A program made the translations under genes and the position numbers. Of a DNA stretch of 64,000 bases, positions 6,616 to 30,925 are shown piece by piece. The notes under the pieces are model-generated. The model was not told where the DNA came from, ran no database searches, and was given only the letters and a program-made list of their open reading frames with translations. The stretch spans positions 496,001 to 560,000 of the forward strand of contig CADCXA010000041.1 of NCBI GenBank assembly GCA_902806565.1. The letters are read 5' to 3'. The stretch's first letter is position 1. Every line of letters begins with the position of its first letter. Source of the stretch: Hypoxylon rubiginosum. Taxonomy: Eukaryota > Ascomycota > Sordariomycetes > Xylariales > Hypoxylaceae.

Positions 6616-6998
6616 ACAGATTTAACGAACTTGGCACTTTTATCATTTTAGCAGTTTAGCATAAATTTACAGCGGAGAAATAATAGCTTTACCGTTTTAT
6701 GCTTAGTTATATAGCATATTACCACCATCTCTGCTGGAAGACGTAATACAGGAATTTCCCCAACCAGGCATAGGAAAGCTAGTGCAGATATGAATAAGCG
6801 GATATAAAATCTAATCAAATTGCAGTGTCTTCTTAAGCGGCAATCGACGATGTTGGCATCCCGTGAAGAGCCTCCTCACTTCTTTTCACTCTGTCAACCT
6901 ATTCAGAATTTCTAAAATTTATGTTCCGCTAGACCAAATTTTTAGATGCGTTTCGCCAACTTAGCGTGATCCCGCATTTCTACGCTGTGTCGGTCCTT
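6616..6998. other. Intergenic, edge of AT block
   Basis: Normal-composition DNA begins here. No gene is seen; this is the 3' flank of the minus-strand gene that follows. Confidence 0.6.
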
Positions 6999-8291: not shown

Positions 8292-8697
8292 CTTGAGCGA
8301 GAAGTTGTCGTGAAAGAGAAATACACACTTCCTTTCAAAGGTATATCCAGTAATATGCCATCAAGACTCAGGCAATTATGAGATATAAATAGCACCCCCT
8401 CAAATGGCAGTGGCAGAACGCCTCGTAGCCTGCTTACCTACACTTGACCCCACACAACTGCCGTTCGTCGAATCGACAATGCAGGTGGTCACATTATAAC
8501 TTGAGAGCCCAATGAGAACGTCGAAGAGTACATCGCCCGATTGTTGTACCTAGATCGACCATTGCTGGGATCAATGAAGCGGAGCGAATTGCCACACGGC
8601 TATCTATGTACGTAACGTCACTCGGTCGGGGTCAGGCTCTACACAATTCGATCTGGAATCTCTCATCTTTAACAACCTTTTTCTGCATAGGTTTAGT
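8292..8697. promoter_or_regulatory. Divergent intergenic region
   Basis: The 406 bp between two divergently transcribed genes presumably holds both promoters. No distinct motif or repeat was recognised. Confidence 0.4.
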
Positions 8698-10728
8698 ATG
8701 GAATCGTCTGACAAGCGCTCGGCGGCGGTGTGTCTGAAATCATCATTAGACACCAGTAATGTTTCAACAGAGAATTTAGTCCCCCGAGTCCATACTACCA
8801 TGACATCCAGGGAGCCTGCAGGGATGTCTCCGTCAACATCTGGAACGACGACAGAAAATCTTCCGGATTCTGGCTACAATACACAGCCGACGACGCCATC
8901 CGGTAAAGTTTCAGAGAACGCGAAGTCCAATTGGTATCGGCGAAGCTCTATCTCCTCCTTGTTCGGTAAAAAGAAGAAGATCAGATTGATCGCCAAAGAA
9001 GTCGATATACCGACCCTGGAACGATTCAAGGCAATTCAACACGATCTCGAGGAGTTCCTTCTTGGACAGATGCGAGCTCACCAGAAGCCTGGCAAGAGAT
9101 ACGCACCGATGTCGATACGAGTGGTGATGATGGGTATATCGAACGATGATGCGCGCCCTTATATCGTTGTCTTTTGTGAATCTTCGCTCAAGAATCTTGT
9201 TCAGGGATTCATCAAACAAGACATAATCGCAAGTCTCTGTCAGCCAGGGGACATGGGCGTGCCGTCTTTTGAAGTTGTAGTTCATGGCAATGCACCGCGG
9301 TTACGCTTGGGCGAATCAGATATCGATGTCGTTGCTGATACAACTTGCGTATATGGGAGAAATCGTGAAAACACGCTTTGCGGTGTACCCATCTCGTTTC
9401 GGCTTCCAAATGGTCAGCGACATCATGCCACTTTCGGCGGTATCATCAAAGTTATGACTATTAGTGGCGACATAGAACTGTTGGGAATGACCGCGGGCCA
9501 TGTGCTACATCAATGGGACGATATTGGGGCTGTGCTGCAGGACGGCGAAGCACCCATCCGGGACGACCAGTCTGCTGACAGTATATTTCATGAAGAACTT
9601 CTCGTCCATGGCAATGATGTCCAGAGTTCCGTGATATTCGAAGACGAGGATGACGACGAAATTGAAGTTGACATAGAACCCCTCATCCCTAGCCAATCTT
9701 CTGCGGAAAGGCTAGACACGGGTTCGCGTTGGGAATTTAAGCATACGACTGTGCTTGGTAATATTATTGACGTTACAGAGAGCAGTAAACGCCACAGCTC
9801 TAAGCAGAACCATGACTGGGCTCTATTTCGGCTTACGACCTATGCAATGAATTATGCGCGCACCTCCAAGGGAAGAAAGGAACTCCGCACCATATCCCAA
9901 AGAAATCCGGGAGCCAGCGGCAGGAGGCCGATTCGTATGTTAAGTGGCTCGAAAGGGCGTAGGAAAGGAACCTTGCTGTCCGAGCCGGGCCGGATACTAC
10001 TTGAAGGCGACCAAGAATTTGTCGACTCCTTTATGATTACAATAAGCGGTAAATCGGGTATGAATCGTGTCGATTTCCTTCAATGCGCATATACTGATAG
10101 TGAGAATAGGTATATGTGATGGTGACTCCGGCTCATGGGTTGTTGATGATGAGACCTTTGAAGTCTACGGCCAGCTTGTCGCCTCGGACGTCCTTGGCAG
10201 TGGCTATGTTATACCCATGGAAGGTATCATGGACGACATAAAGTCGCAACTAGGAGCTAAGACCGTCGGGCTGCCTGGCCCTACAATCATTTTATGTGCA
10301 TCGACAATCAGGACGGCAGAGGCGAGGCATTTGGCTAAAAAACGTCCTCTTAGTCCCACCACTGGTCTCAAAGGTAGCTCGGTTACCCAGCTATCTTCCA
10401 ACCTAGAGAACACGGATCTAGCCCGATTGTTCTCTCCTGCTCCATTGAGTCCAAGCTTGTCGATGGTTTTTGATTCGGGATATTCGTCAATGGGGAGCTC
10501 ACCAAGCCGCCGACGCAGACGTATATCGAGAGAAGATAAGCAGCTCGAGCATCAGAGGTAGGCTAGATCACGCTTAGGAGCGATAATTTTGATTTGGATA
10601 CGATCGCGCATAGGGTCGAGTTGAATGAATGCAAGGCGGGCAAAGTTTCGTGCTTTTCGTGCTGGGGCGCGTCCGAGTCCTTTCTCTATGGCCATGTGTC
10701 TTACTGCCATTCATGTCGAACCCGGTAG
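8698..10728 (+). CDS. Serine-protease-like fungal protein (GDSGSW family) with possible C-terminal zinc ribbon
   Basis: Exons 8698-10057, 10110-10557 and probably 10614-10728 give about 640 residues. If the second splice is not used, the protein stops at 10561 with 603. The first intron has GTATGA, TACTGAT and ATAG signals. The core looks like a trypsin-fold domain. A candidate triad is His268 in T-A-G-H-V, Asp373 in H-D-W-A-L-F and Ser460 in G-D-S-G-S-W. About 90 Ser/Thr-rich residues precede it, with a basic patch (K-K-K-K) at 91-94. An acidic loop lies near 315-328. The proposed third exon adds C-F-S-C and C-H-S-C pairs about 17 residues apart, a zinc-ribbon pattern. Proteins of this kind are common in moulds, but their substrates are unknown and activity is not certain. 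The domain call is fairly firm; the third exon is less so. Confidence 0.72.
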
Positions 10729-11569
10729 CAAGCAGATCATTCTAGGCCAGATCCTCAATTGAGAAAGTTGCCGGGGACTTTAGGCCGAAGCACAGAAGGA
10801 ACTCGGTATCAGCCTCTTCATTCGCCGCCGAGAGATTGTCAAAGATAATCCGTATTCTATGTCGCTTTACTAAGACGCTTAATTAGCTGGGCGCTGCTTT
10901 CGCCAACTGCTCTCTCATCGTTCCTAGGCAGGACGCAACGTTAACGACGCTACCGGGTCGCTATGAGCAGAATCTGATAGTTTCTGAGAGCTAGCCAAGA
11001 GATGGATTCCATACATAGCAGCAATTGTATTAGATTGTGCAAATTTTAAGTGTTCCAGCCGAGGAAGAGGACGGAGAAAATTAGGTAGGAATTAGGGGGC
11101 AGGTACAGAACCCGTCAATCGCTAAAGGACGATTAAAGGTCTACCTGTAACCTGTAGGTACCCCTCACCCCGCCACCACCATCTGGATGCACTGTAGACC
11201 GTCTAGCCGCCTTGGAGGTATGGCGTAAACTGATGGCACAGAAACCTGACGGTATCTTTTCAGACATTAGTCTAATTTTTCAATTGTATTTAATACATGG
11301 AAAAATCTAGATATACGATAAATCTATATTATATATGGCTTCTTGTTTACGACCTCTAACATTTATAGGGGTCTGGTCGGGATTAGGATCGATCTAATCG
11401 GTCGGCACCGGAAGCTGGCCGGACAGCCGGATCGTACAATGGAAACCTCAACATTCACGTGCAAGCAAATCCATAAGCTTCTAACATGTGATGACGTCTA
11501 GTCTAGATCAATTCCCAATCCCAATCCCATCGCCTACTTTCCCCTAACTCAGTACGAAAACTGTTTAAA
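10729..11569. other. Intergenic, no gene seen
   Basis: About 840 bp of mixed composition between two plus-strand genes. The stretch near 11270-11360 is A/T-rich. No open frame or repeat was recognised. The promoter of the aldolase-like gene must lie towards the right end. Confidence 0.5.
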
Positions 11570-12389
11570 ATGGCATCTGCAGCGACGATTCAGCGATTAC
11601 GTGCCTTTGCCAGCTGTGACGTATGTAACCTTTCCACCTTCATCTCCCCCGCCATACTGTGAACACCGCTAACTTCTCGACGCCAAGATCGGAGATGCCT
11701 TGGTCAAGCTCAAATACCCATTCGGTGGTTTCCTCGATGGCATCACCATGTGGTCGCCTGATAGACGGGCCGGCCAAGCCAAAATGTTTGGCCCTGCAAT
11801 TACGGTAAAAATGGTTGAGATGAGTGATCAATCGTCTCCCTCGCCGCCGCGACATTTCGCGGATTTCAACGAACAAGGAAAGGTCATGTACATCCAGCAA
11901 CCGAAGGGTCTTTATTCTGCCTGTTGGGGAGGTCTCATGTCTACCCGAGCCAATTATCTCGGAGCTAGTGGCGTGGTAATTGATGGCAGGATAAGGGACG
12001 TCAATGAACATCGAGAACTTGGTTTTCCGGTAAGGATGCATTTCAATATGAGATGAAATCTTGTTATACTGGAATGAGACCGAATTCAATCAAAGCCAAC
12101 TAACATCTGAGTCTAGGTATTTGCACGGGATACCTCAATTCTAGGATCGAACACGTTTACTCGAGCATCCGAGATTGATATCCCGCTTCAGTTTAAAGAA
12201 GACCTCTGGGTCAATCCGGGAGACTATCTTGTTGGGGATGCAGACGGCGTCGTGGTAGTGCCTCCTTCTTTGATGGAATCTATCGTAAAGATATGCGAAG
12301 AACGAGCTGAAATCGACCGGAAGACTGTGGAGGCACTTCAACGCGGGGAAGAGATGGGGCCGACACTTAAGAGACTCAGAAAGCCTTAA
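11570..12389 (+). CDS. RraA/HMG-aldolase-like protein
   Basis: Three exons (11570-11620, 11688-12029, 12117-12389) separated by introns of 67 and 87 nt, each with a clear CTAAC-type branch site, give 221 residues. The start is the first ATG, and the short first exon ends S-C-D as usual in this family. The family signature is visible: G-P-A-I-T-V, and G-V-V-I-D-G-R-I-R-D, which supplies the Arg-Asp pair for substrate and metal. A G-D-A-D-G-V-V-V-V-P segment lies near the C-terminus. Bacterial and plant relatives cleave 4-hydroxy-4-methyl-2-oxoglutarate or 4-carboxy-4-hydroxy-2-oxoadipate to pyruvate, using a divalent metal. Some decarboxylate oxaloacetate. The exact substrate here cannot be told. 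A class II aldolase-like gene follows on the same strand, so the two may share a catabolic role. Confidence 0.88.
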
Positions 12390-13169
12390 GACGCTACATT
12401 AGGTAGGTAGGCAAATTATTTATTCATTACAAACCATTATATAAAAAAAACACAAATACCAGGGTAATTGTAGATATTGGGTATTGGGAAAAAAAATAGT
12501 GTCACCTGTGGGATTCGAACCTACAAGCAACCACAGTAATAAAAAAAAAAAGGTAACATTCCGCGAGCTAACCAACTAGGCCACTACCTTCCGTAACCAA
12601 CAACGAAGGATGGAGAGTACAGTCACGGCGTTAGCGGCAGCCCGGGACATGTTGAATTACTACTGCATTAAACCATATTATAAGCTTTACTTTAGGTAGG
12701 TAGGTATGCTACGTTTTTTTTTAACCTACCTTAGGTACCTAGGCATTCTTTGGCAATCTACACGTCGTTCATACAGTTTGAGTGTTTAATATTCATCAAA
12801 ATGTAACCTTTATCGATGAAAGAAGTCCATCTCTCTCTTCATATTTAAATAACTTACCAGTATAGCTGGAAGATCAGAAGTTGCTAGATTTGTGTCCCTG
12901 ATTTGTGCCGAGCGGATGCTTAGCGGGGCTCTCGATCCCCCAATCCCCTCACCCCCTTTTTTTCATCACCCGCGTCTTATTAGTCTAGTCAATTCACGTG
13001 GTCTCCTTGACTTCGGGTATAATGCCTAGTGCTATGTCACCGGCTTTTGACCGAACGCGTGGGCGGAGTCAATTGTGAAATAAGGACTTGTACTTCGTAC
13101 ATATTAAGCCAGTTAAGACAACGGCGCGGGATTGAGAACCAGGACAGCCTACGCGATAATAATCTCAAG
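12390..13169. other. Intergenic with tRNA-like relic and TAGG/CCTA repeats
   Basis: Contains the tRNA-like unit at 12500-12596 and short TAGGTAGGTA / CCTACCTTAGGTACC repeats near 12400-12411 and 12693-12745. No protein gene is seen. The promoter of the next aldolase-like gene is presumably in the right third. Confidence 0.5.
12500..12596 (-). pseudogene. Degenerate tRNA-like pol III unit
   Basis: Read on the minus strand, an A-box match (TGGCCTAGTTGG) and a perfect B-box (GGTTCGAATCC) lie at tRNA-like spacing, followed by a T8 run that would end pol III transcription. The D-arm and T-arm resemble a tRNA. The 3' acceptor half (AGGTGAC-A) has no complementary 5' partner, and the T-stem has one mismatch. 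A run of about twelve T lies where the anticodon arm or an intron should be and should stop pol III early. It is most likely a tRNA pseudogene or a tRNA-derived element rather than a working tRNA. The amino acid cannot be assigned. Confidence 0.5.
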
Positions 13170-14154
13170 ATGGCTTCTTTTCCACACAACAACAGAACTT
13201 TCCAAATCCTTAGCGCAGCTTCCAAAGGAGGGTACGCCGTCGGTGCTTATAACTGGTAGGTTGATAAGAGGTGTGCTGAAATATGATAACTAACCGCACG
13301 GCAGTTACAATGACGACGGCGTCATCGCAGTGATCAGAGCGGCAGAACGCTGCAAGTCACCAGCTATCATCCAGATATTTCCCTGGACTATTAAATTTCA
13401 GGGACCACACTTCGTCAAATATGTGGTAGCGGCAGCACATTCCGCCAGTGTGCCCGTAGCTGTACATCTTGATCATTGTATTGAGCCGGAAGACGTCAAG
13501 ACCGCGCTTGACCTCCCTTTCGACTCGATCATGGTCGATGCGTCGACTCTTGAGCCGGAGGAAAATATCAGGAATTGCCGAGAAATCGTGCAGATCGCCA
13601 ATGCAAAGGGCATCGCGATCGAAGCCGAGATGGGCCGCATCGAGGGTGGCGAGGACGGTTTGCCCGCCGTCGGCATGGAAACCATCTTGACCCAGCCCGA
13701 CTTGGCGAAATCATTCGTGCAGGAGACCGGCGTTCAGTTCTTAGCACCAGCTTTTGGAAACATACACGGAAGATACGGGCCCGGTGGTCCAGAAGCATCG
13801 TGGAGATTACCTCTGTAAGTCGCCTGGAGAACGATCATGTTAGTTGTCGTGGCCATTATATCTGTATTGACCATACATTGCAGGTTAATGGATGTCCATC
13901 GGGCAATCCCGCACATACCACTCGTTCTCCATGGTACGCACGGGGTGTCAGACGAGCTATTCCGAGAGACCAGGAAATACGGGATGGTAAAAATCAACTT
14001 GAACCGAACCGTCCGAGATGAGTACACAGACTTCGTAGCTCAGAATGCTGGCAAACTGGAATTAACGGTACTCAAAGCACAAAGTGTCGAGGTTTACGCC
14101 AAGTCAATTGAACGCATTATGAGAGATGTTCTAGAGTCAGCCGGGAGGGCGTAA
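13170..14154 (+). CDS. Class II fructose-bisphosphate aldolase-like protein
   Basis: Three exons (13170-13255, 13305-13814, 13884-14154) with introns of 49 and 69 nt give 288 residues. The join G-A-Y-N-C-Y-N-D-D-G across intron 1 supports the start and splice. Class II ketose-bisphosphate aldolase features include V-H-L-D-H-C (zinc His and catalytic Asp region), A-F-G-N-I-H-G (zinc His) and V-L-H-G-T-H-G (zinc His and phosphate loop). Relatives split fructose- or tagatose-bisphosphate into dihydroxyacetone phosphate and an aldehyde using zinc. The short length and the second gene of this kind that moulds often carry suggest an accessory sugar-phosphate aldolase rather than the housekeeping enzyme. 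It is probably cytosolic. It lies just right of the RraA-like gene and just left of the biosynthetic group, with no direct evidence that it belongs to either. Confidence 0.88.
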
Positions 14155-14496
14155 CTCAATTCGCTAGATATTTGCAGCTAGGCCCTGTTTGTGACCAGGC
14201 AGTGCTATCAATTAGCAGTAGGTGCGGTAAAATGCCGATATTGTTAGGCGCCAATGGTAACATTAGGTGACCTAAATGCGCTGTAACGCGCTATAAGCTA
14301 CGTACTACAGGCAGCTTAAGAGAATCCAAACAGGGGGTCCGCCTACTACCGCACAACCTCGAAGATAGTAGTGGTGGCTGAATTCCAATATTTCGACTTC
14401 TTAAAAAGAATCCTGCTCTGAGACATATCAACAAGAAATATGTAGGTGACTACCACCGATATTGCTACACGTTGTTGTCACTTGCATATGGCTCAT
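14155..14496. other. Intergenic between convergent genes, possible small MITE
   Basis: Two genes converge on this 342 bp gap. It holds a candidate inverted-repeat element at about 14181-14340, with GGCCCTGTTTG on one side and CAAACAGGGGGTCC on the other. The central part has small palindromes around GCGCTGTAACGCGC. No target duplication was found. Confidence 0.35.
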
Positions 14497-17400
14497 CTAT
14501 TGTGGCGAGTTCAACTTCAACTCTTTCCATGATTCCAGTTGTGTCCAGTACCTTAAGAATTTCCCAATCAGCTCATCGGAAATCCGCACGCCACTTCTCA
14601 AGATACTCGAGCACCGCCTGGAATTCGTCAAGTCCATCTCAAGATTGTTGTCTTGGGCTTCTGAGTCCACCTTAGGCTGGTACTTGCGCTTAAACCACTC
14701 CAAGAGACGGTATGCCGGGTTGTCTTCGACCGGCAAGTTCAGCTTCTCCAAAAGGCACAACCAGTCGGTGGCAGGGACGGCCTCGAAGAGCATACCGTGT
14801 CTTCGCAGCGCCGGGAGAAACTCGGAACTCCACTGCACGGGAGTGGCGTTCGACACGTGGAACACGCTCGCAGATCCCTCCGACTTCCCCTCCGACTTCT
14901 GGAGCGCAAGCTCGACTATTGAAGCGGCAGCGAGATCTACCGGCAACCAAAAATGAGTGTCAAGGGGGCCCTCGGTTATTGGAAGTGTGCCGGTAGTTAT
15001 AGCGCTCTGCACCATGATGGGAATCGTCTCGGTCGGATTCCACATGCCGTAACGAGTATCGCCGGCCACCTGGCCAATTCGTAAGATCTTGACGGGAAGT
15101 TTGACGCCAAGACTTTGAGCATACTGAGCAGCCATGTCACAGATTTTCTCCGCTACCCATTTCGACTGCCCGTAGCCCATGTCACTTGCGGCTTCCCAAT
15201 CGTAAAGCACTTCTCTGAGCGGGGATTCTCTCCCACGAAGCACGGAGGCAACGCTAGAGAGCAAGCAGAATGTCGGCGTAGGAGACCACGGCGAGTGCAT
15301 TGCGAGATCGAGGAGGTGCGCGACTGAAGAAATGTACGGCTCTTCATATGATCTTAAGGACATGTTGAAGTTGACTGCCCAAGCACCGTGTATAATCGTC
15401 GTTACTGACGTGCGGAGGACTTCGTATAGCTCGTCGTCGAGACCCAGACGATGCTGCCCGAGCGCGGTCGCGAGAGGGACGATCTTTGACATTTGCGACT
15501 CATCTAGACCATCAAGTCGTGCAGCAGCAATGGCCTGAATGATGCGCGCCTTTGCTGCGGTGTCTTGTTCGGCCCGGACCAGACAATACAGCTTTTCTAT
15601 ATGAGGTTGGCGGGCAAGTGAGTGCAGGATGTGGCAGCCGATCGTGCCAGTCGCGCCCGTCAGAAGCTAGAACGCGAGGCTTTAGTGACGATACATGAGA
15701 AGAAGTGTACCCCTTATACGCTACTTACAACAATTTCTCCTGGAGGAATTGCGACAGCTCCTGGTTCAATCTTAGAAAAACGGGTGTACTTCTGCACTAG
15801 GCTTTCTGCGAAAAGCTTCATCGTCTCGAAGCTATGCAAAGATTGTCGGCCATTTCGGACGTCTACTATGTGCTGGGTGAGACGGTCGACAGTCGGGAAA
15901 TCGAATACCACATTTGCAGCTAACGAGTGACCACCAAGGTCAACCCTCCTCAGCAGCCGTGACCTGGCGTGAGATGCTTGCAAGGAGTCCATACCTAGGG
16001 AAAAGAAGTCGGAGTCGTCGGCTAACTTGCTGTCTTCAATTAACAAGGTCAACTTCATAGTCTCTCGAACAATCTCTCCCACATCCCCGTCCGTAACTGG
16101 AGCCTGAACTTCATTTCCCAATTCTCTCTCAGCATAGAACCATTCGATGTCTCTTCCGCATAGCTCTAGTAACCTCGAACGAATCCAAGTGGACTTTGCG
16201 GTCATGGGCACCTCAAAACCGACATCCTTGATAATGACAGAATCAGGAGACACTCGCGCATACGCGGGCACTTTAGCGTTTCCCAGTTCTAGACTAGGCT
16301 CGATACTCTCGAGAAGCTCCTCTCTGGAAAGCCCGGCGGCACTGTCAGATGGAAAAACCAACATGCCAAGCGAGTCATAGCCAGAGCCGAACACCACGGC
16401 GGTATGCACATTGACGTTGGCGGATAGAGCCTGCTCTAATGGGGTCGGATCCGCCTTCTCGCCATTGACTAAAACGATAATGTCATCGGCTCTGCCCGCG
16501 AATTTCCATTTCCCGGGGTTGCTTGGGTGACGTTCAAAGAGATCGTTGGTACCGTACGAGCCGTCCTTGCGATTCGAGAGCATCTTAGTGGGGAGGCCTG
16601 GCAGGATGACCAGCTGACAGAAATTCTCTCTGTCTTCGAGGGGCTCGAATCTCATGAATGACTCGGCGTGCGGTAACGGGGAATACCAACACCATTCTCT
16701 GCCTGTGCCGGGCCGCATCAGGCCACCACTCTCGGTCTGGCCGTAGATGGTGCTGATCGTTACGCCCCTGTCCACCAACTCGTCGCCCAGCTCTGGAGGC
16801 ACCGCAGAGCCGGCCGTAATGACCGAGTCCAGCTGCGCCAAGCGGGCGGGGCCTCTTTCGACTTCGGCGCAGAACTTCAGGACGTGGGGCACGGCGACCA
16901 GAGTCATGGAATTCGTCACGTCGAGGGCCTCGAGTACGTTAGTCGCGGTGACGGGCCGCTCGGCGCTTATCACGCTCAGTTTGCGGCCGCTTACTAGCAT
17001 GCGAAAGAGTAGGCCAATACCGAAACTGTGGAAAACGGGCAGTGTAGTCAAAGTATCGTGCTCGGGCCTTCGCCGGACCATCTCTGCGTTCTGAAGAAGC
17101 CACTCGCCAGAGTTCATAGGTACCGGCTTGGGCAAGCCTGTGGTGCCACTGCTGTGAATGATAAGCTGGGGCGATTCCGAGGGGTCTTTAAGCTCGAGGG
17201 CAGGTAGATGGAGATCGAGAGGCCCCTGAGCAATCTCTTCAAGCCTCTGCAGATCTACCATCGGAATGATGTCTAGCTCGAGACCCTCGGAATTCTTCAC
17301 CCGCCTCATGGCTTCTGCCGAGACGCCGGACACCAGTACTGTCTTGCATTGTGTCTGCCGCAACAAGTGTGCGAATCCTTGGTCTGCCAACCGTGGCGAC

Positions 17401-17708
17401 ATGAGCAACGTCCTCCATCCCAGCCGTTGGAGAGCGAAGAAGTAGAGGTGATACACCAAGTTCGAGACGCCGACAACGGTTACGACAGGTCTCTCGCCCG
17501 GACTCGTATCATTCATAGGAACCCTAAGCCATTCTGGGAGCACGGCGATGACGGCTCTTGTCAGCTTCTCCAAATCCGTCGCAGTGAATTCCTTGAAGTC
17601 AAGCGTGTGAGAAGGGTATGAGATCAGCACCCTGTCAGGAATCTGCGCCGCCAGGCTGCGGAACACATTATCCAGAGACAGTTCTCTCAACAGAATTTGG
17701 GGTGCCAT
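14497..17708 (-). CDS. NRPS-like A-T-R enzyme (carboxylic acid reductase type)
   Basis: Two exons, 17708-15729 and 15666-14497, with a 62 nt phase-0 intron (GTAAGT...CTAG), give 1049 residues. Adenylation domain, about 1-510: S-S-G-T-T-G-L-P-K-P at 186-195, Y-G-Q-T-E-S-G at 322-328, K505 as the likely A10 lysine. Carrier domain with F-F-S-L-G-M-D-S-L, pantetheine site Ser575. Reductase domain from 661: T-G-A-T-G-T-I-G for NADPH and Y825-x3-K829. There is no condensation domain. The A4 region reads V-F-H-S-F-G instead of F-D-x-S, so the Asp that binds an alpha-amino group is absent; this fits aryl or cinnamic acids. Known relatives load an acid and reduce it to aldehyde or alcohol. It faces the methyltransferase gene across a 438 bp promoter region and lies in the ammonia-lyase cluster. 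The substrate is inferred. Confidence 0.92.
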
Positions 17709-18146
17709 TTTATCCAGTTGATAGCTATATCTTACGCTGAAGCCATCCGTAATGGTGCACGATGATGCAGATATATATACCTACCTACATAGGTACCTTA
17801 TATCAGGTACCCAGGTACCTTGGGACGCATGAGGTACATGTATGCAACACCCAGTGTGCAAATCCCCACTCACACAGGGAAACGGAATGGAGCGTAGGAT
17901 TCTGGCATGCGTGCACCGGTATGTATGCGGCATCAGACGTGTACATATGGTAGGCAGAGATCATGCAGACGGCATTAGAAATAACAGACTGGCCATGCCT
18001 ATTCCCTATTCCAGGAGGTGGTTTCCCCCCTTACCCGTCCTTTTATGGTTTTCCTAGTTGAGATTTATCGCCTTGAGACTAACACTTACCTACTTCGATC
18101 GATTAAAAAGTGACCAGGATTCAACACTCATACATCGCATCCCATC
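17709..18146. promoter_or_regulatory. Shared divergent promoter region of reductase and methyltransferase genes
   Basis: The 438 bp between two divergently transcribed cluster genes suggests common control. A TATATATA-type element lies near 17770, about 60 bp upstream of the reductase start. Next to it is a run of CCTACCTA / GGTACC palindromic repeats (17778-17822). A pyrimidine tract near 18027-18045 lies upstream of the methyltransferase. No clear CGG-N-CCG palindrome for a Zn2Cys6 factor was found by eye. Confidence 0.5.
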
Positions 18147-19605
18147 ATGTCTAACCAACTAGTCAGCTCTAAGAATGGCACTACTCTTATTTCCCTGGCC
18201 GAGAACATTCATACGCAAACTGAAAGCATCATTGCGTACCTACGGGCCAATAACTTATCTGAGCCGACATTCGATATTGACTCAAGCCCGCCTCCCACGA
18301 CGCCAGCATACCTGGCTCTTCAAAGTAGTCTGACAGGCTCCCTCGAAGATCTTCAACGCCTGGTAGAAGGCCCGACGGCGTTTCTACGATCTGTCTGTGT
18401 CTTGGGCTTCGAGTTGGCCGCCTTCCAGATCGCGCTCGATTTCGACTTCTTTACTATTGTGCAACCTGGACATGAAATATCCGTCGATGAACTGGCCGAA
18501 AAGGCCGGCCTAGATGTCGACCGCACAAAACGTACCATGCGCATGCTGATCACGCATAGATTCTTTCAGGAGAACAGGCCCGGATGGATCTCCCACAGTT
18601 CCAGCTCGATCGTCTTATTCGATGACCTCGAAATACGATCTGCCCTTCTCTACTGGTGAGTCAAACATGGTGGCCCAGTCCAGCTGTTGACTCGTTTCTG
18701 ACTTATGTGCAGCCTAGATGAAATGCTCAAGGCAGCCGCGGATTGCAACGTTAGCCTAAAAGCAGCACCGCATGAGTCTGATAGCGAGCATTGTCCGTTC
18801 AAAACACGACATGGTCACTCAATCTTCAACTATTACACCCACCACCCTAAACAAGCAGCGCGTTTTTCTCAAGCAATGGCTGGCATAACAAGAAGTATGT
18901 TCATAAAATTATGTACCTATCGACTTGAGGATACGTGGTACTGACTCGGGAGCCTGCAGTGGGTCGCGAGGTAGGTCAGCTGAGGGATTGTTTCCCCTGG
19001 AACGACCTCGACGGCACGGTCGTCGATGTAGGAGGTGGGAGCGGCCATGTCTCGATGATGCTCGCCGGGGTAAGTGCACCTATTGCAAATTATATAGATT
19101 GAATACCTCTGACGATAATGCATGCAAGCTGTTCCCTCGACTCCGCTTCGTTGTCCAGGATGGGTCGGCTGCGATGCTCGCGGAGGGCCGGAAGCTGTTA
19201 ACTGACGACACTCGAGACCGCATCTCTTTTTCACAGCAGAACTTCTTCCAGCCCCAGACGTACAGAAACGCGGCCGCCTTCCTCCTACGGCAGTGCACGC
19301 ACGATTGGTGCGACAGCGACGTCGTCACCATGTTCAAGTGCATCGTACCTGGGCTCGAAGGCTCTGCTCCAAATACCCCGTTGCTGATCAATGATATCGT
19401 TCTGCCCGAGCCGGGGACTTGGGCTCGGCACGCCGAGCGCGCTGTGCGAGACCTCGACATGATCATGCTCGTAGGGTTTGGTTCGAAAGAGCGTACTACG
19501 GCCGAGTTCGAGGCTTTGTTGAAGGCGGCGGATTCCAGATACGTGATTTCTAATGTCCACGCTACCGGACCTATGGGTCTCCTAGAGGTCTATCTAGAAC
19601 GATGA
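18147..19605 (+). CDS. SAM-dependent O-methyltransferase (COMT-like)
   Basis: Four exons (18147-18655, 18713-18894, 18960-19069, 19129-19605) with introns of 57, 65 and 59 nt, all phase-consistent, give 425 residues. The N-terminal half is the helical and winged-helix dimerisation region of class I plant/fungal O-methyltransferases. The SAM motif V-V-D-V-G-G-G-S-G-H is near residue 255. The catalytic-base region reads L-R-Q-C-T-H-D-W-C-D, with the expected His. The C-terminus ends G-L-L-E-V-Y-L-E-R as usual. Length is normal. Family members methylate phenolic hydroxyls of polyketides, flavonoids and phenylpropanoids. Next to an ammonia-lyase and an acid reductase, a hydroxycinnamic acid, aldehyde or alcohol is a reasonable substrate, but this is inference. 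It is transcribed divergently from the reductase and convergently with the ammonia-lyase. Confidence 0.92.
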
Positions 19606-19681
19606 TTGCCAAAATTGGGGGTAAGCGAGGTCTAGGATGGCACAATCCTTAGTTTCACATGACCGTTCAGACTGGTTTTCA

Positions 19682-19709
19682 GGGGGGGGGGGGGGGGGGG
19701 GGGGGGGGG
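19682..19709. repeat. Homopolymer of 28 G
   Basis: An uninterrupted run of 28 G follows the methyltransferase stop by about 75 bp. It is followed by an A/T-rich stretch up to about 19870 in the gap between the convergent methyltransferase and ammonia-lyase genes. It could form a G-quadruplex. The true length may differ because such runs are poorly sequenced. Confidence 0.9.
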
Positions 19710-19889
19710 CGTTATTAATGTAAATCTGATATAAAACACAATTCGCAAATTGTAATTGCTGATTCTAAGATAAAAATAAACATAACGTAGTAATTAAAAC
19801 TAGTATAAATAAACTTACCTTGTATTAAATAGTGAAATGTTTTTAATTTTTTAAGATCCTCCTTTTCTTATTTCCTCCGGATTCTCTTA

Positions 19890-22116
19890 TTAATATCCCA
19901 TCGTAGGGGGGCTCTTGATCCTCGCTTCTTCTAGACACTCCATAACCACTCCATAGAGCTTTCCCGACCGAATGGCCTCATGAACGGCTGTGAGATACGT
20001 TCCCAGACTCGGCGCCACTCCTACATGAGCGTCCCGCTCGCCAATTGCCCCGTGCAATCCAGACTCAGGAACATTATCTACGCCCCGTAGCAACTCTTCC
20101 CCAATGAACGGGCAAAGAGTTTCCCGCACAAACTGGTACATCTTCTGGCCTGCTACACCTAAGTATTCCTTCGCATGTAGCCCTCTGCCATCGCCGATCA
20201 AAGCCCGAGTCTTCTCGTACGTTGCAGAGGCGATACTCAACATCTCTTCCTGAAATTGACCAACGGTCACGAGCGTGTCAGCCAAGCTGCCTCGGGCAAA
20301 GCTCTTGATAAGCTCGCCCTCGAGCTCGTGCATCGACTTTTCGAGACGCGGCTTCAGGTCCATGTTCGTGTGTGTTTCCCAGCTGTGCTGAAAACGTTCC
20401 CATAGGGCCGCTGCACCTTGGTCATCGGGGCACGCAGTATGCTCGCAGACCCTGGCGGAGAACTGGGGAGCGAGGGTCTTCCGGAACTCGCGCTCCAGGG
20501 CCCTCAGATCGAGAGCCTGGCAGATTATGACGAGGTGCGCGGCCGCAAGCTGGGTAAATACTTCGACGGATTCTAGGGTGTACCGCGTCGAGACCAGCGC
20601 CAGCGAGTTCAGCGCCTGGTTTCCCATCTCGGCCGTCTGCACGTGGGTCCCGACCGGGTTGGCGAGGAATCCCAGCTCGCTCGTCAGGGCCGCCGTCATG
20701 ACGTCGATTCCTTTGAACAGGTAGCTGCCGGAAGGGTCATCGGACGCCAGATTGGGCGGGAGACCGCGGCTGGTGGCGGGGTTTATGAGCTCGGTGCATT
20801 GCGTAAACAGCATTCGCCCCAGGGACTGCAGTCCCTGGCGGAGCTTCTCGACGGCAGATGTCACTGCCTTGGCCTGGAAGTTTCCGCCGCTGAGGACGCG
20901 GTTGCCAGCCACGTCTACCAGCGGGTTGTCTGTTGCGGAGTTTATTTCGGTAGAGAGTTGTTGGTGTGCCAGTGAGAAGTCTTCAATTACAGGGCCGATC
21001 CATTGGCTAGCTGTGCGGATGGAGTATCTGATTATCATATCAACAAGTCTGTATCAGCGCATTCAATTAAGGGATGCCTCACCTGTCCTGGTATAGTTCG
21101 CCAGCACTGGACTTGAGCGGGTTGTTCTTGGCCGTCTTTAATCTAGAATTGCCGAGGAAGGCATATATGTTTCTAGCAGAGTCGGCCTGGCCTGGGTGCG
21201 GCCGAACTTGGGCTGTAAATGGATCGAAGCTCTCGTCGGTACCGAGGAGCGCCTCGACGCTCATAGCCGTCAGCACTTGTGACAAGGCTGCCAAGCATAG
21301 GCACTCGTGCAAAGCAAGAGAGGCTATACCGGCCGAGACCGCAGTGCCGTTCACGATTGCTAGTCCCTCCTTGGCCTGGATCTCGATGGGGGTAATGCCG
21401 GCGTCGGCGAGGGCAGCATCGGCCCTGACAACCTTCCTCTTCCCTCCGGTGTGAGGACCGGCGAATACGGTTGCAGATCGCTTCCCCTGCATGACAGCTC
21501 CAATGTAGCTCAGGGGGCTCAAGTCTCCCGATGCGGAGATACTACCACGCACTGGGATGCGTGGTACGATGTCGTGATTCAATAGGTCCACCAGAGACTC
21601 GGCAACCCCTACCGTTATCCCTGAAGCCCCGCGGGCCAATGAGTTCAAGCGAACTACCATCGCAGCCCTAGCCCAGGACTCTGGCATGGTCGTGGCCCCC
21701 ACGGGTTCATTGAGTGGGAGCAAGGGTTTGGAAGAATGGTAGCCATTACTGCGGGTCTGGACAGATCCATTGGATTGGTTGGTAGCCGAGGAGGGTTGAT
21801 CTTCAGCTAAGATCCCGAACATGAGATGAGAAAAAAGGCTCTGCTGCAAGTCGCGATATGCAGCCGTCCTTGTATCGGCACTGCCACCGAACCCAGTGTT
21901 TGTTCCGTAAATCACTTCTCGCTTGGCCAATTTATCACGGACGACTGTACTGCCCCGTGAGATGGTCTCCGCAGCTTCAGTTGACAGTGAAGCTGGAAGG
22001 ATATGTCTCGCGACAAGGACGACATCAGCAATTGTTAATGAGTGGCCATCGACAGTGGTCCGCGGAGTATTGAGACCATGCCAGTGTCCCAGTACAAGGT
22101 CTGTGAAAGTAGCCAT
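19890..22116 (-). CDS. Aromatic amino acid ammonia-lyase (PAL/TAL type)
   Basis: Two exons, 22116-21083 and 21027-19890, with a 55 nt intron (GTGAGG...ATCAG), give 723 residues, normal for fungal PAL. The A-S-G triad that cyclises into the MIO cofactor is at 195-197 in G-S-I-S-A-S-G-D-L-S. The catalytic Tyr70 lies in Y-G-T-N-T-G-F-G-G-S-A-D. The join Q-D-R-Y-S-I-R-T-A-S-Q-W across the intron is the conserved PAL sequence. N-S-A-T-D-N-P-L follows. The selectivity pair is His97-Leu98, as in grass enzymes that accept both Phe and Tyr; yeast PAL has His-Gln and dicot PAL Phe-Leu. Reaction: Phe or Tyr to trans-cinnamate or p-coumarate plus ammonia. An aminomutase or histidine lyase is less likely given length and motifs. 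It probably supplies the acid to the neighbouring A-T-R enzyme. Confidence 0.95.
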
Positions 22117-23255
22117 GATTCTTGTTGAAATTATGCGTCAGGAAAGACTTGAAAAGAGGGTCTATCGGTTTAGTGGTAAGAAATGTTGCACTAGCATCTG
22201 AGACATCCTAATAACGTTGTTGACAGCTTTATTAATACTCCGCCACGCTATCAATGAGGATTCCCGATAGCTGTTGAAGTTACAGTATACGTTTGAGGGC
22301 GTCAACAACGTCGGCTTCGAGGAACGACCTCATTACCCCTTATCGGCTATGTGGACACAGTATCAGACACGATCATACAGAATCTGCCTGCATAGCCCTT
22401 GATGCCTCCCAAACTCGTACACTGCTGCTTTAATAGGGGATGCTTACATGGCACTTGCCATGATATATTATCTTGGAGATAGTAGTAGTCGGTGGAACTC
22501 GAATCTCAATCCTTTGGCCCATATCGTCACAGTTCCTACCCAAGCCAGACTCGCCTACGCCTCCTTCCTGCTTGCTGGATAACTTGTCTCCTCGGCAGAG
22601 CTTTTGTCATAAGTCAGTTAGTGTTCAGGCTGATTGCTGCATATATAAGAGATATATGAGGTTGCCGACGTGGTCGGCGACTGGATGGCTTCAGCTACAT
22701 AGGATTCTTTGGTGTTGAAAGTGACAGGTCGTCAAGCCAATGCATATGCATAATGTATGGAGACATAGGTAGGCTGTAGGCTTATCAGTACGTACCGGGC
22801 TGCAAGTAAGACCGGTCCAGCTTACTGCATCTCGAGAGATTAGAGGATTCCGGGCCTTTTGAATCAAAGAGAATTGTTAGTTGAATGCACTTATTCAAGT
22901 TCTATAGTAGTACCAAACTAGCCCTTGTCACACTCTCTAGGTAGCGAGCCCTCAATATCTGTTAAACTGAGTATCTGAGCTAGTTGGCATAATCGAAGCG
23001 TCAATTATTAGCACGAGGTAGTGGACTCCAGACTAGAAGAAAGATGTTTGGCCATTTCATAACAGAAGAAGACGATGGATCTCGACCGATAGTCTTATCC
23101 AACACGTGACCCTACGAAAGGCAGACATACGATACAAGAATGTTAACATTCGGGTGAGAAACAAGTATAATATATACCTAACTAGATGTTTCATTTCAAA
23201 GCGTGACGCGTGGCTATGACGGAATTCTGTAAAAATGGGATGGATGATGACAGTC
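22117..23255. other. Intergenic, promoter of the ammonia-lyase gene
   Basis: About 1.1 kb between two minus-strand genes. The proximal part near 22224-22240 has TTTATTAATAC, a possible TATA-like element. No gene, repeat or recognised operator was found. Confidence 0.45.
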
Positions 23256-24714
23256 TCATAAGCCCTTGGCCAGCTCTCTAATGTGAGTTGGCCAGAAATT
23301 CTCCAATGTATCCATATATCTCGCGAAAGAAGGACTTGAGGTGTCACTCAGGCAACGAAAGAACCAGTCATCCAGCTCTCCAGACTGAATCCTAAGTTTG
23401 CTCTGTAAACATAAAATATAATTAGTGCTCTATCCATCAAACACGGATCTGGAAAATGTACTTACCCAGGTTGAAACCGGATCGACGAAGAACTGGAAGA
23501 CCTGCCGTCGCTCATCCGAGTACATCGTCAATACGGGTTCCACAGGCTTCCCTTCTCGCAAGATCATAATCAGTGCGTCACTGAGAGCCACACAGTCCAG
23601 CAGACAGTTGCTCAGACCTAGGCCGCCAATAACCTAAGTTCAGGATATGGACGTTAGATCTATCTCCATGGTGAGCGTTCATGGCTTTGAAACTCACATT
23701 ATTAACGTGTGCAGCGTCTCCAGCAAGTAGACATCTTCCCTTCTTAAAGTTTGCGGCGAGACGCTGGTGGACGGTATAGGTTGCTTTCCTGTCGATTTTG
23801 TACGACACTGGGCGAGAACCTACCCAAGCTCTATCGTAGTGCTGAGCAATGTGACTCTCATGTAAGAAATCCTCGTCTGTCTTGGATTTTAAGTCTTCCG
23901 GGTTGAGGGCAAAGGTACATCTCCACTTCGATACTTCGCCCGGCAACGGGGGGCTGAGAGGTGAGAGGATGGTATAATGAACAGGATCCATGAGGAGAGT
24001 CGTCGTGGTCGGGCTCCCTTCCTCGTTAGGGAGCCATACGTCGGTGGCAACAAGCTTCTCAGGCCAAGTATGGCCTGGAAAAGGTATGCCTAGCAGTGAT
24101 CTGGTTTTTGACCTGCCACCATCTGCGCCAATCAAGAATGAAGCTGTGTATCTTGATTCAATGTCTGACGCAAGGTCTTTCACTGCTATCGCCACTTCTG
24201 TTGCCCCTTGAACGGTCCCATCACTCTCAATCGAAATGAACTCCTTGCGGAACAAGACTTGGACCTGCCCAGTGCCGATAGCTCTGTCCATCAAAACCTC
24301 GCACATCCGAGATTGCGGGATGTTGAGCATGCTGATGGCCGGGGTCCCATCCAAAGGTCGCCGTGGAGGTCCCTCAGGACGGAACTTGTCTGCATCTTCC
24401 CTGGGGAAACTAGCAACCAGTTGTCCAGGCTTCTTGCCCCCGTCACCGTCAAGTAGCGGGGGGAGCCGTATGTCAAGACCCGTGGTTCTGAAGCCACCAC
24501 CCTTTTCGATGAGATCGTTGTATATCCCAGCATCGTCCAAAGCAAACTGAACTTGGGGGTAAAACATGCATGCTCTTGGGAACTGTGACAAGCTAGCGTC
24601 TCTTTCAAGAACGATCACCGATATTCCAGCTTGGCCAAGGCGCAGCGCCGTGAAAAGGCCTACAGGGCCAGCGCCGACGATGATAACTTCGGCATCACTT
24701 GTTGGGGTAGGCAT
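23256..24714 (-). CDS. FAD-dependent aromatic monooxygenase (PHBH fold)
   Basis: Three exons (24714-23698, 23633-23466, 23402-23256) with introns of 64 and 63 nt, all phase 0, give 443 residues. The start is the ATG directly before the Rossmann motif. An in-frame ATG at 24831 would add 39 residues that look unlike this family. FAD signatures: V-I-I-V-G-A-G-P-V-G at 10-19, the I-G-A-D-G-G motif near 209, and L-L-A-G-D-A-A-H at about 329-336, continuing into V-I-G-G-L-G-L-S-N-C after splicing. Length fits class A flavin hydroxylases without the extra C-terminal thioredoxin-like domain. Relatives hydroxylate phenols, salicylate or p-hydroxybenzoate ortho to an OH with NAD(P)H. In this cluster a 3-hydroxylation of a coumaryl-type ring before O-methylation is attractive, but unproved. 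It sits between the ammonia-lyase and the transposon block. Confidence 0.9.
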
Positions 24715-25040
24715 CGCACAGGAGTTCAATAAGGATTTGCCATCGCAAGTATGTGGTAGCTTGTAGTTAGTGGAACGTGGATACTCAAGAAATATGTACC
24801 AAGCCGCCACGACGTCGGTAGGATTCAACACTACGACTAAGATACAACCCCGTAACGGGAAGGATCGAAGCTAGACCTAATATAAAACTTTGTATCCACA
24901 GCGGCAGATCGACGTTGCTTATTTGAACCCGTCTGTGAGATGCAGGGGTAATCTAGAGGTAGCCCTAGCATCTTGGAGAACGTTTTTAATACCTTTAAGG
25001 CTCTGTTTATCAAACCCCCGACACGTTATTTCACACTCCC
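24715..25040. other. Promoter side of the monooxygenase gene, edge of AT block
   Basis: Normal-composition DNA up to about 25040, where the AT block starts abruptly. It must contain the monooxygenase promoter. No motif was recognised. Confidence 0.45.
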
Positions 25041-25170
25041 CTTGCCTTAAATTAGATCCATTATAATAATAAGAATTATTTAATTTTATATTAAATTTTA
25101 ATCCGCGTATAATATATTTATATTAAGTACTTAAAGTACCTAATAAATATAATAGTAAATTATAAAATTA

Positions 25171-25700
25171 AAAACTGTTAATTTTATTAATTTTAAAAAA
25201 TCCGTATTTTTTTTATTAAATATTATAGTTTTAACATTATATTTATTTTATAATTATAAAATTATAATTTTATAATTTAAACCGTATTTTTATTTTTTAT
25301 ATATTATAATTTTAATATTATATATAATTTTATAATTAATTTTATAACTTTATAATTAATTTTATAATTTTATTATTTATTATATATAATTTTATTATTT
25401 TATAATTTTATTATTTTATAATTTTATTATTTTATATAAAGCGTTTTATAATATATTATAATTATAAATATTATATAAAATATATATATTATAATAAATT
25501 ATAATTATAAAATTATATTTTTAAAATTATAAAATATAAATAATATTAATATTATAATATTTAAAAAATAAAAATATAAATTATTAAAACTTATATTATA
25601 AAGTTAAAGCCTTATAATTATAAAGTAAATATAATATTAAAATTATAATATTTAAAAATAAAAATATAAACTTTTTAAAATTAATAAAATTAACGGTTTT
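25171..25700. mobile_element. Foldback/MITE-like element with long inverted repeats
   Basis: The left end (AAAACTGTTAATTTTATTAA, then TTTTAAAAA) matches the reverse complement of the right end (AAAACCGTTAATTTTATTAA, then TTTTAAAAA). The match continues for about 170 bp per arm (about 25171-25340 and 25530-25700), with differences almost all C/T or G/A. Each arm itself seems to hold two related units that begin near a CCGTATTTTT motif. No coding region lies between the arms. It is probably a foldback DNA element or an inverted duplication altered by RIP. Confidence 0.7.
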
Positions 25701-25749
25701 AATATATATAAAATGAAAATTTATATAATATATAAATAATAAATAATTA

Positions 25750-25908
25750 AATATTAAATTTAAAAATTAATTAGTAATTAAAAATAAATAAACTTTTATT
25801 AAATAAACTTTTAAATTAAAATTTTATATATAATAATAATATAAAAATTATATATTTTTTAATTAAAAAATTTAAATTTAATTTAATTAACTTTTAAATT
25901 TAATAATT
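25750..25908. repeat. Left LTR-like direct repeat
   Basis: Matches 30761-30918 in the same orientation. Where the two differ, this copy nearly always has T or A against C or G in the other, so it has lost more G+C. Confidence 0.65.
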
Positions 25909-28900
25909 AAAAGTTTTATTATTATTTTTTTAATGTTATTTATATATAAAAGAAATAGTAAAATTATTTATTTAAAATATTTATATAATTAAATAATAAA
26001 AAAAGTAATTTTTTTAAAACTTTAACCGATTTAAAAAATTAATATAATTAGGAAAATAAATTTAAATTAAAAACCAAATTATTAAAGTTTTTTAATTATT
26101 TAATTAACAAGATTTTATTATTTAAAAAACCAAAGCTTTTTAATATAATTTTAAAAAAATATAATAAAAAAGTTAATATTATTACCGCTTTTATAAAATT
26201 AAATAAATCTGTAAAATTTATTATAATAAAATTAAAAAAACTAAACTTATTTTAAATTAAAAGAAAAAATAAAAATTAGTTTATTTTAAACTTAATAAAA
26301 AACAAAAAAATTAATTATAAAATAAATATAAATTATTATAATTAATATAAAAAATTATATATAAAATAAACTATAATAATAAAAAAACTTAATAATTATA
26401 TATATTAAATTATAATAAACTATTATAAAATTATATATTATATCGCTAAAAAACTAATATAAAAATAATATTAAAAATTAAATATTTAATATAATAAAAC
26501 TAAATTAAATAAAAAAAATAATATTAAAAAAAAATATAAAAAAATAATAATATCTTTTAAAAATCTTAGAAATATAAGCTAGTGGTTATAAATTTAAAAG
26601 ATAGTTATATTTAAAACTAAGTTTTATAAAATACTTAAAATATAACATTTAAACTTATAAATAAAAAATTTTTTAAATATAATAAAAAATTTTTATAAAA
26701 GTTAAATTATTATTTATAAAATAACTAAGAAATTATAATTTATTAATAACATTTTATAATATAAAAACCTTATAAATAACTTTTATAGTTATATAATTAA
26801 AATAATATATAAAATAAAAAAAATATTTAAAAAAATCTTTAAATTTATTTATAATAAAAAAAACTTTAATAAAGAAAAATTAATTAATTTTTTCCCTAAT
26901 TAATTAAAAAATAAGAATATAAGTAAAAGAAAATTATAAAAAAAAAATTAAGATGCTATATTAACTAATAATTACTTAATATATAATTAATATTATTAAT
27001 TTATAAAATATTATTATATTTTTTTAAAAAAAATATATAATAATTTTAAATTAAAAGATTAATTAACTCTTAAAATTAAAAAGGTTTTAAAAGATTTAAA
27101 GCTTTAAATATAAATATAATTATTTAAAAAAAATAAATTAAAATTTAAAACTTTTTAATTTAAAAAAAAATCCGAAAAATTATAAAAATAACTATATAAT
27201 TAGTTTATAAAAAAAGTGCCAGCTATATTTTTTACCTTAATAATAAATAAATATTTTTTAATTTATTTAATTATTTTAAATAATAAATTAATTATTATTA
27301 TAATAAATTAAATATATTATTTAATTAATTAAAAATAAGTGTTATTTAGTAATTATTTTTAATTAAAAAACTAAACCTTATTAATTTAAATATATAAAAT
27401 AATAAACATATTAATTAAAAATATATTAATATTATTATTAAATATAACTTATTGTTTTTTATTATTAACTATTTTAATTTTATTATAAAAATTAAAATAT
27501 AAAAAATTTTAATAAAATAATAAAATAAATTTAATTTATATATAAAAAAAAGATAATATTTTTATAAATAAAATTAAAAATATATATAAATAATATATAA
27601 TAATTTATTAAATTAACATATAAATAAAAAAAAATATATTTAATATTATTATAAAAAAGTATAAATATAATATATAAACTAAGCAAACTTTTTTAACTAA
27701 AAATACCTAAATATAATATTATAAATTAAAATACTTAAAATTTTAAACCTTAAAACATTTTATAAATTTATTTTAAGAGATGGTTATTTAAAAACTAATA
27801 AAAGTTAAGTGTAAAACTTATAATATATTTAAAATAAAACAATAAATTTAATATGTTTTTAAATTAAATTATTAAATACTAAAAAAATAAATTACTTTTA
27901 ATTTTTATAATTATAAAAAAACACTTATTAAAAAAAACTTATATTTTATTTTTATATATTAAATATTAAAAGCAGCTTAAAATTATATATTTAAGAATTA
28001 TAAAATAAAAATAATTTTTAATATAATAAATAATTATTTAAAATAATTAAAATATTAATATAAAATTATTATAAAAGTAATAAAAACTAATAATAAAATA
28101 ATTATTAATAAATTAACTATTAAAAAAAACCTAAAAATATATAAAATAAAAATTAAGTTTTTAATATTAAATATATAAGTTTAAAATAATAAAACTAAAC
28201 ATTTAAAAAATATAATAAAAATAAAAACGCGTGTAATATAAATTAAAATAAAATTATTAATATATTTATAATTAAAAATATTTAAAGTTATTACTTATTT
28301 ATATAATTATATATTAAAAACTAAAAATAACTAAAAAACTTTATTTAATATATTTTTTAAAATAATTAAATAAAAGTAAGGATTTTTTATATTAAAAAAT
28401 AAAAAACTAAATTAAACGTATTTATAAATATATAAATATAAAATATATATTATAATAAAAAATTAAAAATTTTATTTAAATAAATTAAATATTTAATTAA
28501 TTATTAATTTTTAAATATATATTATATATAAATATTTTATTTAAATAAAATAATTAATATAAAAAATATTATTTTTAATAAAAACAAGATATTTAATAAA
28601 AACTTAAATATTTTTTAAGATAATTTAAGGATTATTAATATAAAAAAAATAACGGCTTTAATTAAAAAATACACCTTATTAAATTTTAAAAATTATACCT
28701 TAAATAAAAAATCTAAAAAAATAAAAAAAATTAATAATATATTATTTATTTTAAAAATAATAAATATAATAAATAAATAAAAATTAAATGTTAATATTAA
28801 AATAAAACATTTATATATTATAATTAAATTTAAATTATTATTTATATTATTATTAAATTTATTATTTATTTTATTATATTATATAATTTAAAATAAAAAT

Positions 28901-30760
28901 ATAAACCTTATATAAAATTTATTTTAAAACCTAGGATTTTATAAATTTAAACTATAAAAAATTATATTCCTAGTAAATTTTAAAACCTTTTTTATATAAA
29001 AAGTAAAACTAAAAATCCTAAACCAAGCTGGTGTGAAAAAAGCATTATAAAAAAAATAAAAACTATATTAAAAGTTTATTAAAAAAACATTTTATTAATA
29101 TAAAAAACTTATAAACTATTTAATAAAATATTTTTTTAAATAAATAAAAAAAGATTATTTTAAAAACTATATTTAAATAAAGTTTTAATTAAAAATTAAA
29201 AAAACAAATTTAACTATAAAAAAGTATTAAATTTTAAATTATATATAAATATATATTTATAAATTTAATAAATATAAACATTTTTTAAAATATAAAATTA
29301 AATTTATTATATAAAAAAACCAATAAAAAAAGTTATAATTAAATAAAATATATATTGTTATTTTTACTAGTAAATTATTTAAAATATTACTAGTAATAAT
29401 TATTTATTTTAATTTTAAAATAATATAATATAATATAATAAATGTTTTTATATATATTATTATAATAAATAAAATTTTTATATATATATTATTAAAATAT
29501 TAAAAAAAAAATATAATATTATAATTATATAAGGCTTTTTATAAGTTAAGAATTTTATTATTATTTTAATAAAAAAAATTCTTAAGGATTTTATTAAAAT
29601 TAAATTTTAAAAATATATTATATAAATTATATTATTATATTAAGAAAAAAATATTAGTATTTTTTTATATAAATAATATAATTATAACGTATTAAAAAAG
29701 TAATAAAATAATAATAATTAAAGTAATTTTGTAATTAAAAAAAAAATATTAAATAATTAAAAAAAATAAAATCTAATGGTTTTTAAAAATTAAAATTATT
29801 TATAATTAATCTTAAAAAAAGATTTAATTATTTTAAACTTTATATATTAAAAAAATAATTAAATTAATTATTTTATTTAATAGATTATTAAATATATTTA
29901 TAATTTTATAAAAACTATTTTTATAAAAAAATTATATTATAAGATAAAAAATTTATTAATATTAGTGTAAAATTAGTTTAATATTATTTACAGTTATATT
30001 TATTAAATTTAATATATTATTTATAGCTTTATAACTAGTTTAATTTTTTATAAATTTAAATAATATTTATTAGAAAATAATAAATTAAATTATATAATAT
30101 TTATATAAAATAAAATAATATACCTTATAAATAAAAAATAAAAATAATCTAATAATAGTTAATAATATTTTTTTTATTAATAATATAATAAATTATAAAA
30201 GTTTATAAGTTTATATTATAATTTTATTTAATAAATTAATTAATTAAAAAATAAATAAATAAAATATTATTATTACGTTTATTATAAAAACTAAATTATT
30301 AATATTAATATAAACTATAAAAAAAATAATATATATTAAATAATTAATTAAAAAATTAAAAATTAAGCTTAATTATAAAAAAATTAAAATAAAATATAAT
30401 AATATATAAATTATTAAACTAATAACTTTAAAAATTATTTAATTTAAAATTAAGTTAAAATATATAAATATTTATAATTATTAATTTTATTAGAAAATTA
30501 AAAATAATTTAATTATAATTAAATATATATTATTAATAAAAATAAAAATAAATAAATTAATTAAAATATTATTAACTTAAAAATAACTAAACTTATTAAA
30601 TTAATTAAATATTATAAATATTTAATATTTAATTAAAAAAAAAAAGATTAGAAAAATTTAATTAAAATTTAAAAAAATGTATTAAATATAAATATTTTAA
30701 TTTTATATTAATAGTATTTAAATTTAAACTTTTAATATAAATAATTATAAATTTAAAAAA

Positions 30761-30918
30761 GTATATTAAATCTGAGAATTAACTAGTAACTAAAAATAAA
30801 TAAACCTTTATTAAATAAGTTTTTAAATTAAGATTTTATATATAATAATAATATAAAGATTATATATTTTTTAATTAGAAGATTTAGACCTAATTTAATT
30901 AACCTTTAAATCTAATAT
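30761..30918. repeat. Right LTR-like direct repeat
   Basis: Matches 25750-25908. It keeps more C and G (for example TCTGAGAATTAACTAGTAAC against TTTAAAAATTAATTAGTAAT), but at one site it is T where the left copy is C, so both copies were mutated independently. Confidence 0.65.
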
Positions 30919-30925
30919 TAGGTTA

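Follow-up and report, generated by a model that had tools for sequence, protein, structure and literature searches.

A window of 64,000 nucleotides from the ascomycete Hypoxylon rubiginosum (assembly GCA_902806565.1, contig CADCXA010000041.1, positions 496,001 to 560,000) contains, between window positions 14497 and 24714, four intact genes which form a real biosynthetic cluster of a known kind. They encode a carboxylate reductase of the adenylation-thiolation-reduction (A-T-R) type, an O-methyltransferase (OMT), an aromatic amino acid lyase of the phenylalanine ammonia-lyase (PAL) type and a group A flavin monooxygenase (FMO). This xylarialean cluster is somewhat more likely than not to yield a C6-C3 aldehyde, small and probably O-methylated, by a route free of coenzyme A (CoA) thioesters. 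A first-pass annotation of the same DNA had recognized an ammonia-lyase, an A-T-R reductase, an OMT and a flavin hydroxylase here and had joined them into one biosynthetic group supplying a monolignol-like route. The gene models and Pfam assignments bear out the four identities, and the grouping gains further evidence from two- or three-gene linkage in related fungi. All four models feature GT-AG introns and a single stop codon, located at the end of the model.

The four enzymes

The lyase gene is located on the reverse strand and comprises two exons (22116-21083 and 21027-19890), which encode 723 amino acids. Its splice acceptor was chosen according to the relatives' reading YQDRYSIR at the exon joint, and the resulting model aligns without gaps to the PAL of Hypoxylon crocopeplum at 93.9% identity. 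The protein matches Lyase_aromatic (PF00221; 1.7e-141), carries at residue 195 the Ala-Ser-Gly triad that forms the 4-methylideneimidazole-5-one (MIO) group, as is typical of PAL-type lyases, and is most similar among solved chains to 1y2m, a PAL (3.8e-119 against solved PALs). Moreover, the H. texense orthologue (P0122), which was scanned in place of the window protein, exceeds the NCBIfam equivalog cut-off for phenylalanine ammonia-lyase (579.8 versus 519.15 bits). A His-Leu pair that might hint at the use of Tyr is judged to be generic, because it is shared by 119 of the 122 rows aligned, which comprise the nearest 120 matches and two further ones. Given its family membership and intact residues, the enzyme is predicted to be an ammonia-lyase that would act on Phe and perhaps on Tyr.

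The A-T-R gene, also on the reverse strand, consists of two exons (17708-15729 and 15666-14497) and encodes a protein of 1049 amino acids resembling nonribosomal peptide synthetases (NRPS). Its domains appear in the order AMP-binding, AMP-binding_C_3, PP-binding and NAD_binding_4, the arrangement of fungal A-T-R enzymes, and residues H227, E417, S575, Y825 and K829 match all five residues described as essential in the carboxylic acid reductase (CAR) of Neurospora crassa (H237, E433, S595, Y844 and K848; PMC5826065). The window enzyme thereby shares both the domain order and the five essential residues with the fungal NRPS-like CARs, represented by the Neurospora enzyme, AtCAR and PnlA; E417 is conserved in 35 of 43 aligned rows. 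It is 89.7% identical, without gaps, to its H. texense counterpart, 92% identical to that of H. crocopeplum, and matches a partial model from Hypoxylon rubiginosum (P0010) with 99% identity across 590 columns. Family membership and the intact residues predict a carboxylate reductase, for which cinnamic acid would be a candidate substrate.

The OMT gene, the only one of the four on the forward strand, encompasses four exons (18147-18655, 18713-18894, 18960-19069 and 19129-19605; 425 amino acids). It matches Methyltransf_2 (1.1e-20) and displays the S-adenosylmethionine-binding motif GGGSG at position 255 as well as THDW at position 324, whose His we take to be catalytic; these are features of the class I plant-type OMT family. 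Alignment with a run-on model from Paramyrothecium foliicola gives 66.8% identity over 383 columns with two gap openings, and the ends of the OMT model are less sure because the model rests on this single distant relative.

The FMO gene is encoded on the reverse strand in three exons (24714-23698, 23633-23466 and 23402-23256; 443 amino acids). The protein belongs to FAD_binding_3 (3.4e-49), in whose fold it carries the GxGxxG, DG and GD motifs of group A enzymes, and is 94.8% identical to its H. crocopeplum counterpart over a gap-free alignment. Relatives of the FMO with 66-69% identity (P0247, P0248, P0249 and P0251) occur in Colletotrichum, Elsinoe fawcettii and Sphaceloma. For these fungi no close A-T-R relative was among the matches listed, and their FMO relatives may serve another pathway.

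Linkage of the genes in related fungi

Linkage in relatives was read from contigs of equal size and from gene numbers in a protein database that carries no gene order. Equal size of large contigs indicates linkage at the scale of the contig only, while gene numbers and the run-on model indicate close neighbourhood. In H. crocopeplum, the A-T-R, PAL and FMO genes reside on contigs of identical size (1,544,287 bases), and the same holds for Xylaria arbuscula (299,075 bases). Closer neighbourhood is evident in X. curta, where A-T-R (g1276), FMO (g1282) and PAL (g1283) share a contig of 30,996 bases, and in H. texense, where A-T-R (Hte_010852) and PAL (Hte_010854) are two gene numbers apart. X. 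longipes features adjacent FMO (CHU98_g1041) and PAL (g1042) genes and, in a second assembly, A-T-R and FMO on a contig of 179,586 bases; in Poronia punctata, A-T-R and FMO share one of 127,838 bases. Finally, the 1780-residue run-on model of P. foliicola (P0008) joins FMO, OMT and A-T-R with 65.9%, 66.8% and 67.8% identity, respectively, to the window proteins; its public name is 'O-methyltransferase sol2'. This partial linkage of the cluster genes in relatives is newly described here. The full set of four was seen in this window only, because the OMT had no separate search among relatives, the PAL matches shown were 120 of 3852 and relatives' matches were grouped at 90% identity.

A quick tree that took in 36 of the 120 listed PAL matches places the ten rows of cluster-type PALs, six of them with shown linkage, in a single clade separate from the remaining PALs included (Shimodaira-Hasegawa-like approximate likelihood ratio test, SH-aLRT, 100). 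The H. rubiginosum genome itself harbours at least three PAL loci (five match rows) and at least 21 loci that match the A-T-R protein in part, in some cases its R domain only; the latter count was obtained by merging 29 match rows manually. With these counts, both of which are lower bounds, and under uniform placement on the assembly of 48.27 Mb in 70 contigs, about 0.013 PAL/A-T-R pairs within 5 kb are expected per genome by chance (3 x 21 x 10 kb / 48.3 Mb).

Proposed pathway and its alternatives

In the proposed pathway, the lyase would deaminate Phe, or Tyr if accepted, to yield cinnamate or p-coumarate. Subsequently, the FMO would introduce a ring hydroxyl group into a phenolic C6-C3 acid and the OMT would methylate a ring hydroxyl, while the A-T-R enzyme would finally activate the acid with ATP, hold it on its phosphopantetheine arm and reduce it with NADPH to the aldehyde. 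Since group A flavin monooxygenases normally require a phenol substrate, plain cinnamate would be unexpected as a substrate and the FMO step is placed on a phenolic acid. A lyase confined to Phe would require a para-hydroxylase encoded at another genomic locus, and an alcohol as product would demand an unlinked dehydrogenase. We infer all substrates, the order of the second to fourth steps and the product of the cluster. The idea of the first-pass annotation that a single A-T-R enzyme replaces both the CoA ligase and the cinnamoyl-CoA reductase (CCR) of plants is supported by the Neurospora CAR, a fungal A-T-R enzyme that reduces cinnamic acid; this acid was among its assayed substrates, and both cinnamaldehyde and the alcohol were measured in cells (PMC5826065).

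Several observations weigh against this pathway. An orthologue of the reductase (P0002) scores 197.8 bits with the NCBIfam thioester-reductase model and misses its cut-off of 213.35 bits, while the Pfam NAD_binding_4 score of the window protein lies far above its own. The best solved match of the OMT is HpiI, whose family presumably includes pericyclases, and the closest solved relatives of the FMO, by sequence as well as fold, are the para-phenol enzymes PnpA and HspB at 27-29% identity. Neither Poronia nor P. foliicola yielded a PAL among the 120 matches listed out of 3852. In addition, no cinnamate 4-hydroxylase (C4H)-type P450 was recognized among the scanned open reading frames (ORFs) of the surrounding island (6.8-25.0 kb), nor is there room for one in the gaps, the genome at large not having been searched; intergenic gaps in the island measure at most 1139 bases, and open stretches at most 84 codons except for one of 150 that matches no Pfam family. 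Finally, the fungal CAR PnlA accepted 14 of 28 acids, but neither cinnamic acid nor its derivatives (PMC9605436).

The monolignol comparison stands with respect to the gene identities, the grouping and the A-T-R idea, but not as a complete plant-like set. As in the plant pathway, the window genes could account for deamination, for hydroxylation of the ring, for O-methylation and for reduction of an acid to an aldehyde. On the contrary, the island lacks a recognized C4H, and the Pfam scan of its ORFs (6.8-25.0 kb) revealed no alcohol dehydrogenase; the nearest P450 found lies at about 36.6-38.3 kb, past an AT-rich block, and the nearest short-chain dehydrogenase at 49323-50315. Moreover, a flavin enzyme would act in place of a P450, and reduction would proceed on a carrier-bound rather than a CoA-bound acid. 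The plant comparison is thus partly supported, as an analogy with two steps missing and one doubtful. A full monolignol-type route that evolved apart from plants, was maintained as a cluster in Xylariales and was passed to a lineage of Hypocreales is distinctly improbable; in it, the lyase would form p-coumarate from Tyr (or Phe), the flavin enzyme would take the place of a P450 in 3-hydroxylation, O-methylation would give ferulate, and A-T-R would reduce the latter to coniferaldehyde independently of CoA.

Other products can be conceived from the same genes. The cinnamate formed by the lyase might be shortened to benzoate by unlinked enzymes, with A-T-R giving rise to a benzaldehyde that is decorated by FMO and OMT. 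The best sequence match of the A domain, 4-chlorobenzoyl-CoA ligase, points in this direction, as do the p-hydroxybenzoate hydroxylases, which rank third among the fold groups matched by the FMO, and the preference of several characterized fungal CARs for benzoic acids (PMC9605436), and yet such a C6-C1 route is unlikely. The kinship of the FMO with PnpA and HspB suggests a further option, in which oxygen is inserted para to a hydroxyl group by ipso chemistry and the substituent is expelled or moved, so that the final product is a quinol and not monolignol-like. These bacterial relatives, acting on para-substituted phenols, presumably expel the para substituent. At 27-29% identity, however, the reaction of the window FMO cannot be read off from theirs; with the C3 chain expelled, the reductase would also have no obvious task, and we regard the hydroquinone route as decidedly improbable.

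An alkaloid route modelled on the brasiliamide and hancockiamide pathways, with A-T-R reducing an amino acid and PAL providing a cinnamoyl group, is suggested by the PAL activity of a brasiliamide producer (PMC6152788) and by the published fungal CARs, some clades of which reduce amino acids while others act on aminoadipate or on aryl and aliphatic acids (PMC9605436). Against it, neither a condensation domain nor a second NRPS was recognized in the island. Furthermore, amino-acid-activating A domains typically carry an Asp near the H227 site, whereas the window enzyme has His within a PxxH motif like the Neurospora CAR, as do 43 of 43 aligned rows; five A-T-R paralogue loci of the same genome that span the site likewise carry His and offer no contrasting control. 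An alkaloid product is hence scarcely probable. It is also very unlikely that these adjacent genes serve independent functions, such as the handling of plant phenolics, rather than one pathway. In the P. foliicola run-on model, the genes depart from this window in order and strand, and no transcription factor or transporter was recognized inside the island, which would suit such a reading; on the other hand, two or three of the genes are linked in Hypoxylon, Xylaria, Poronia and Paramyrothecium, to be set against the small number of pairs expected by chance.

Genomic setting and significance

The cluster resides in an island of about 50% GC (6802-25000) between AT-rich blocks at 1-6801 and 25001-31001, which contain 6-7% GC and display dinucleotide indices resembling those of repeat-induced point mutation (RIP; composite 0.99 and 0.86). 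Within the island and to the left of the four genes, two genes on the forward strand encode an RraA-like aldolase-family protein (11570-12389; PF03737, 8.8e-32) and a class II (fructose-bisphosphate-type) aldolase-family protein (13170-14154; PF01116, 8.7e-84), both possible cluster members. ORFs at 7002-10558 matched no Pfam family above the cut-off, and a run of 28 G is found at 19682-19709, between the OMT and PAL genes. Past the AT-rich block, window positions 31709-41845 harbour a methyltransferase, a piece of a Fung_rhodopsin-type membrane protein, a cytochrome P450 as well as a Fungal_trans regulator; these may represent another cluster or a split-off one. At 42529-47129, ORFs lying next to one another match NPHP3_N, a NACHT-like domain, and, weakly, TPR.

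Among known systems, the brasiliamide and hancockiamide pathways are likewise fungal phenylpropanoid routes joining PAL activity with single-module NRPS-type enzymes, although theirs lead to amide alkaloids. Hancockiamides reportedly derive from a dual single-module NRPS pathway, the cluster of which is said to contain a PAL gene. Lignan formation is another ascomycete case: Phomopsis sp. XP-8 converts 13C-labelled Phe to cinnamate, p-coumarate and pinoresinol (PMC6897942) and exhibits PAL, C4H and 4-coumarate-CoA ligase (4CL) activities (PMC4557914), while its annotated phenylpropanoid genes are described as unverified (PMC6897942). In contrast to the cluster reported here, the A-T-R relatives in Diaporthe are about 50% identical to the window enzyme, and none is shown beside a PAL.

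A review from 2025 lists the genes behind the reduction of cinnamic acid in Aspergillus japonicus and Schizophyllum commune, which yields cinnamaldehyde and cinnamyl alcohol, as still to be identified (PMC12388069). A survey that covered Xylaria hypoxylon and 13 Hypoxylaceae genomes contains in its main text none of the terms 'ammonia lyase', 'cinnam' and 'phenylpropan', and its count omitted unclustered A-T-R genes (PMC8403587). In the open-access literature we found neither a published fungal CAR described together with a PAL gene nor a described cluster with the same gene set, in agreement with the first-pass annotation, and the cluster is undescribed as far as searched. Taken together, the locus offers a compact and testable gene set in which a single carrier-bound reductase would replace the CoA ligase and the reductase of plants.

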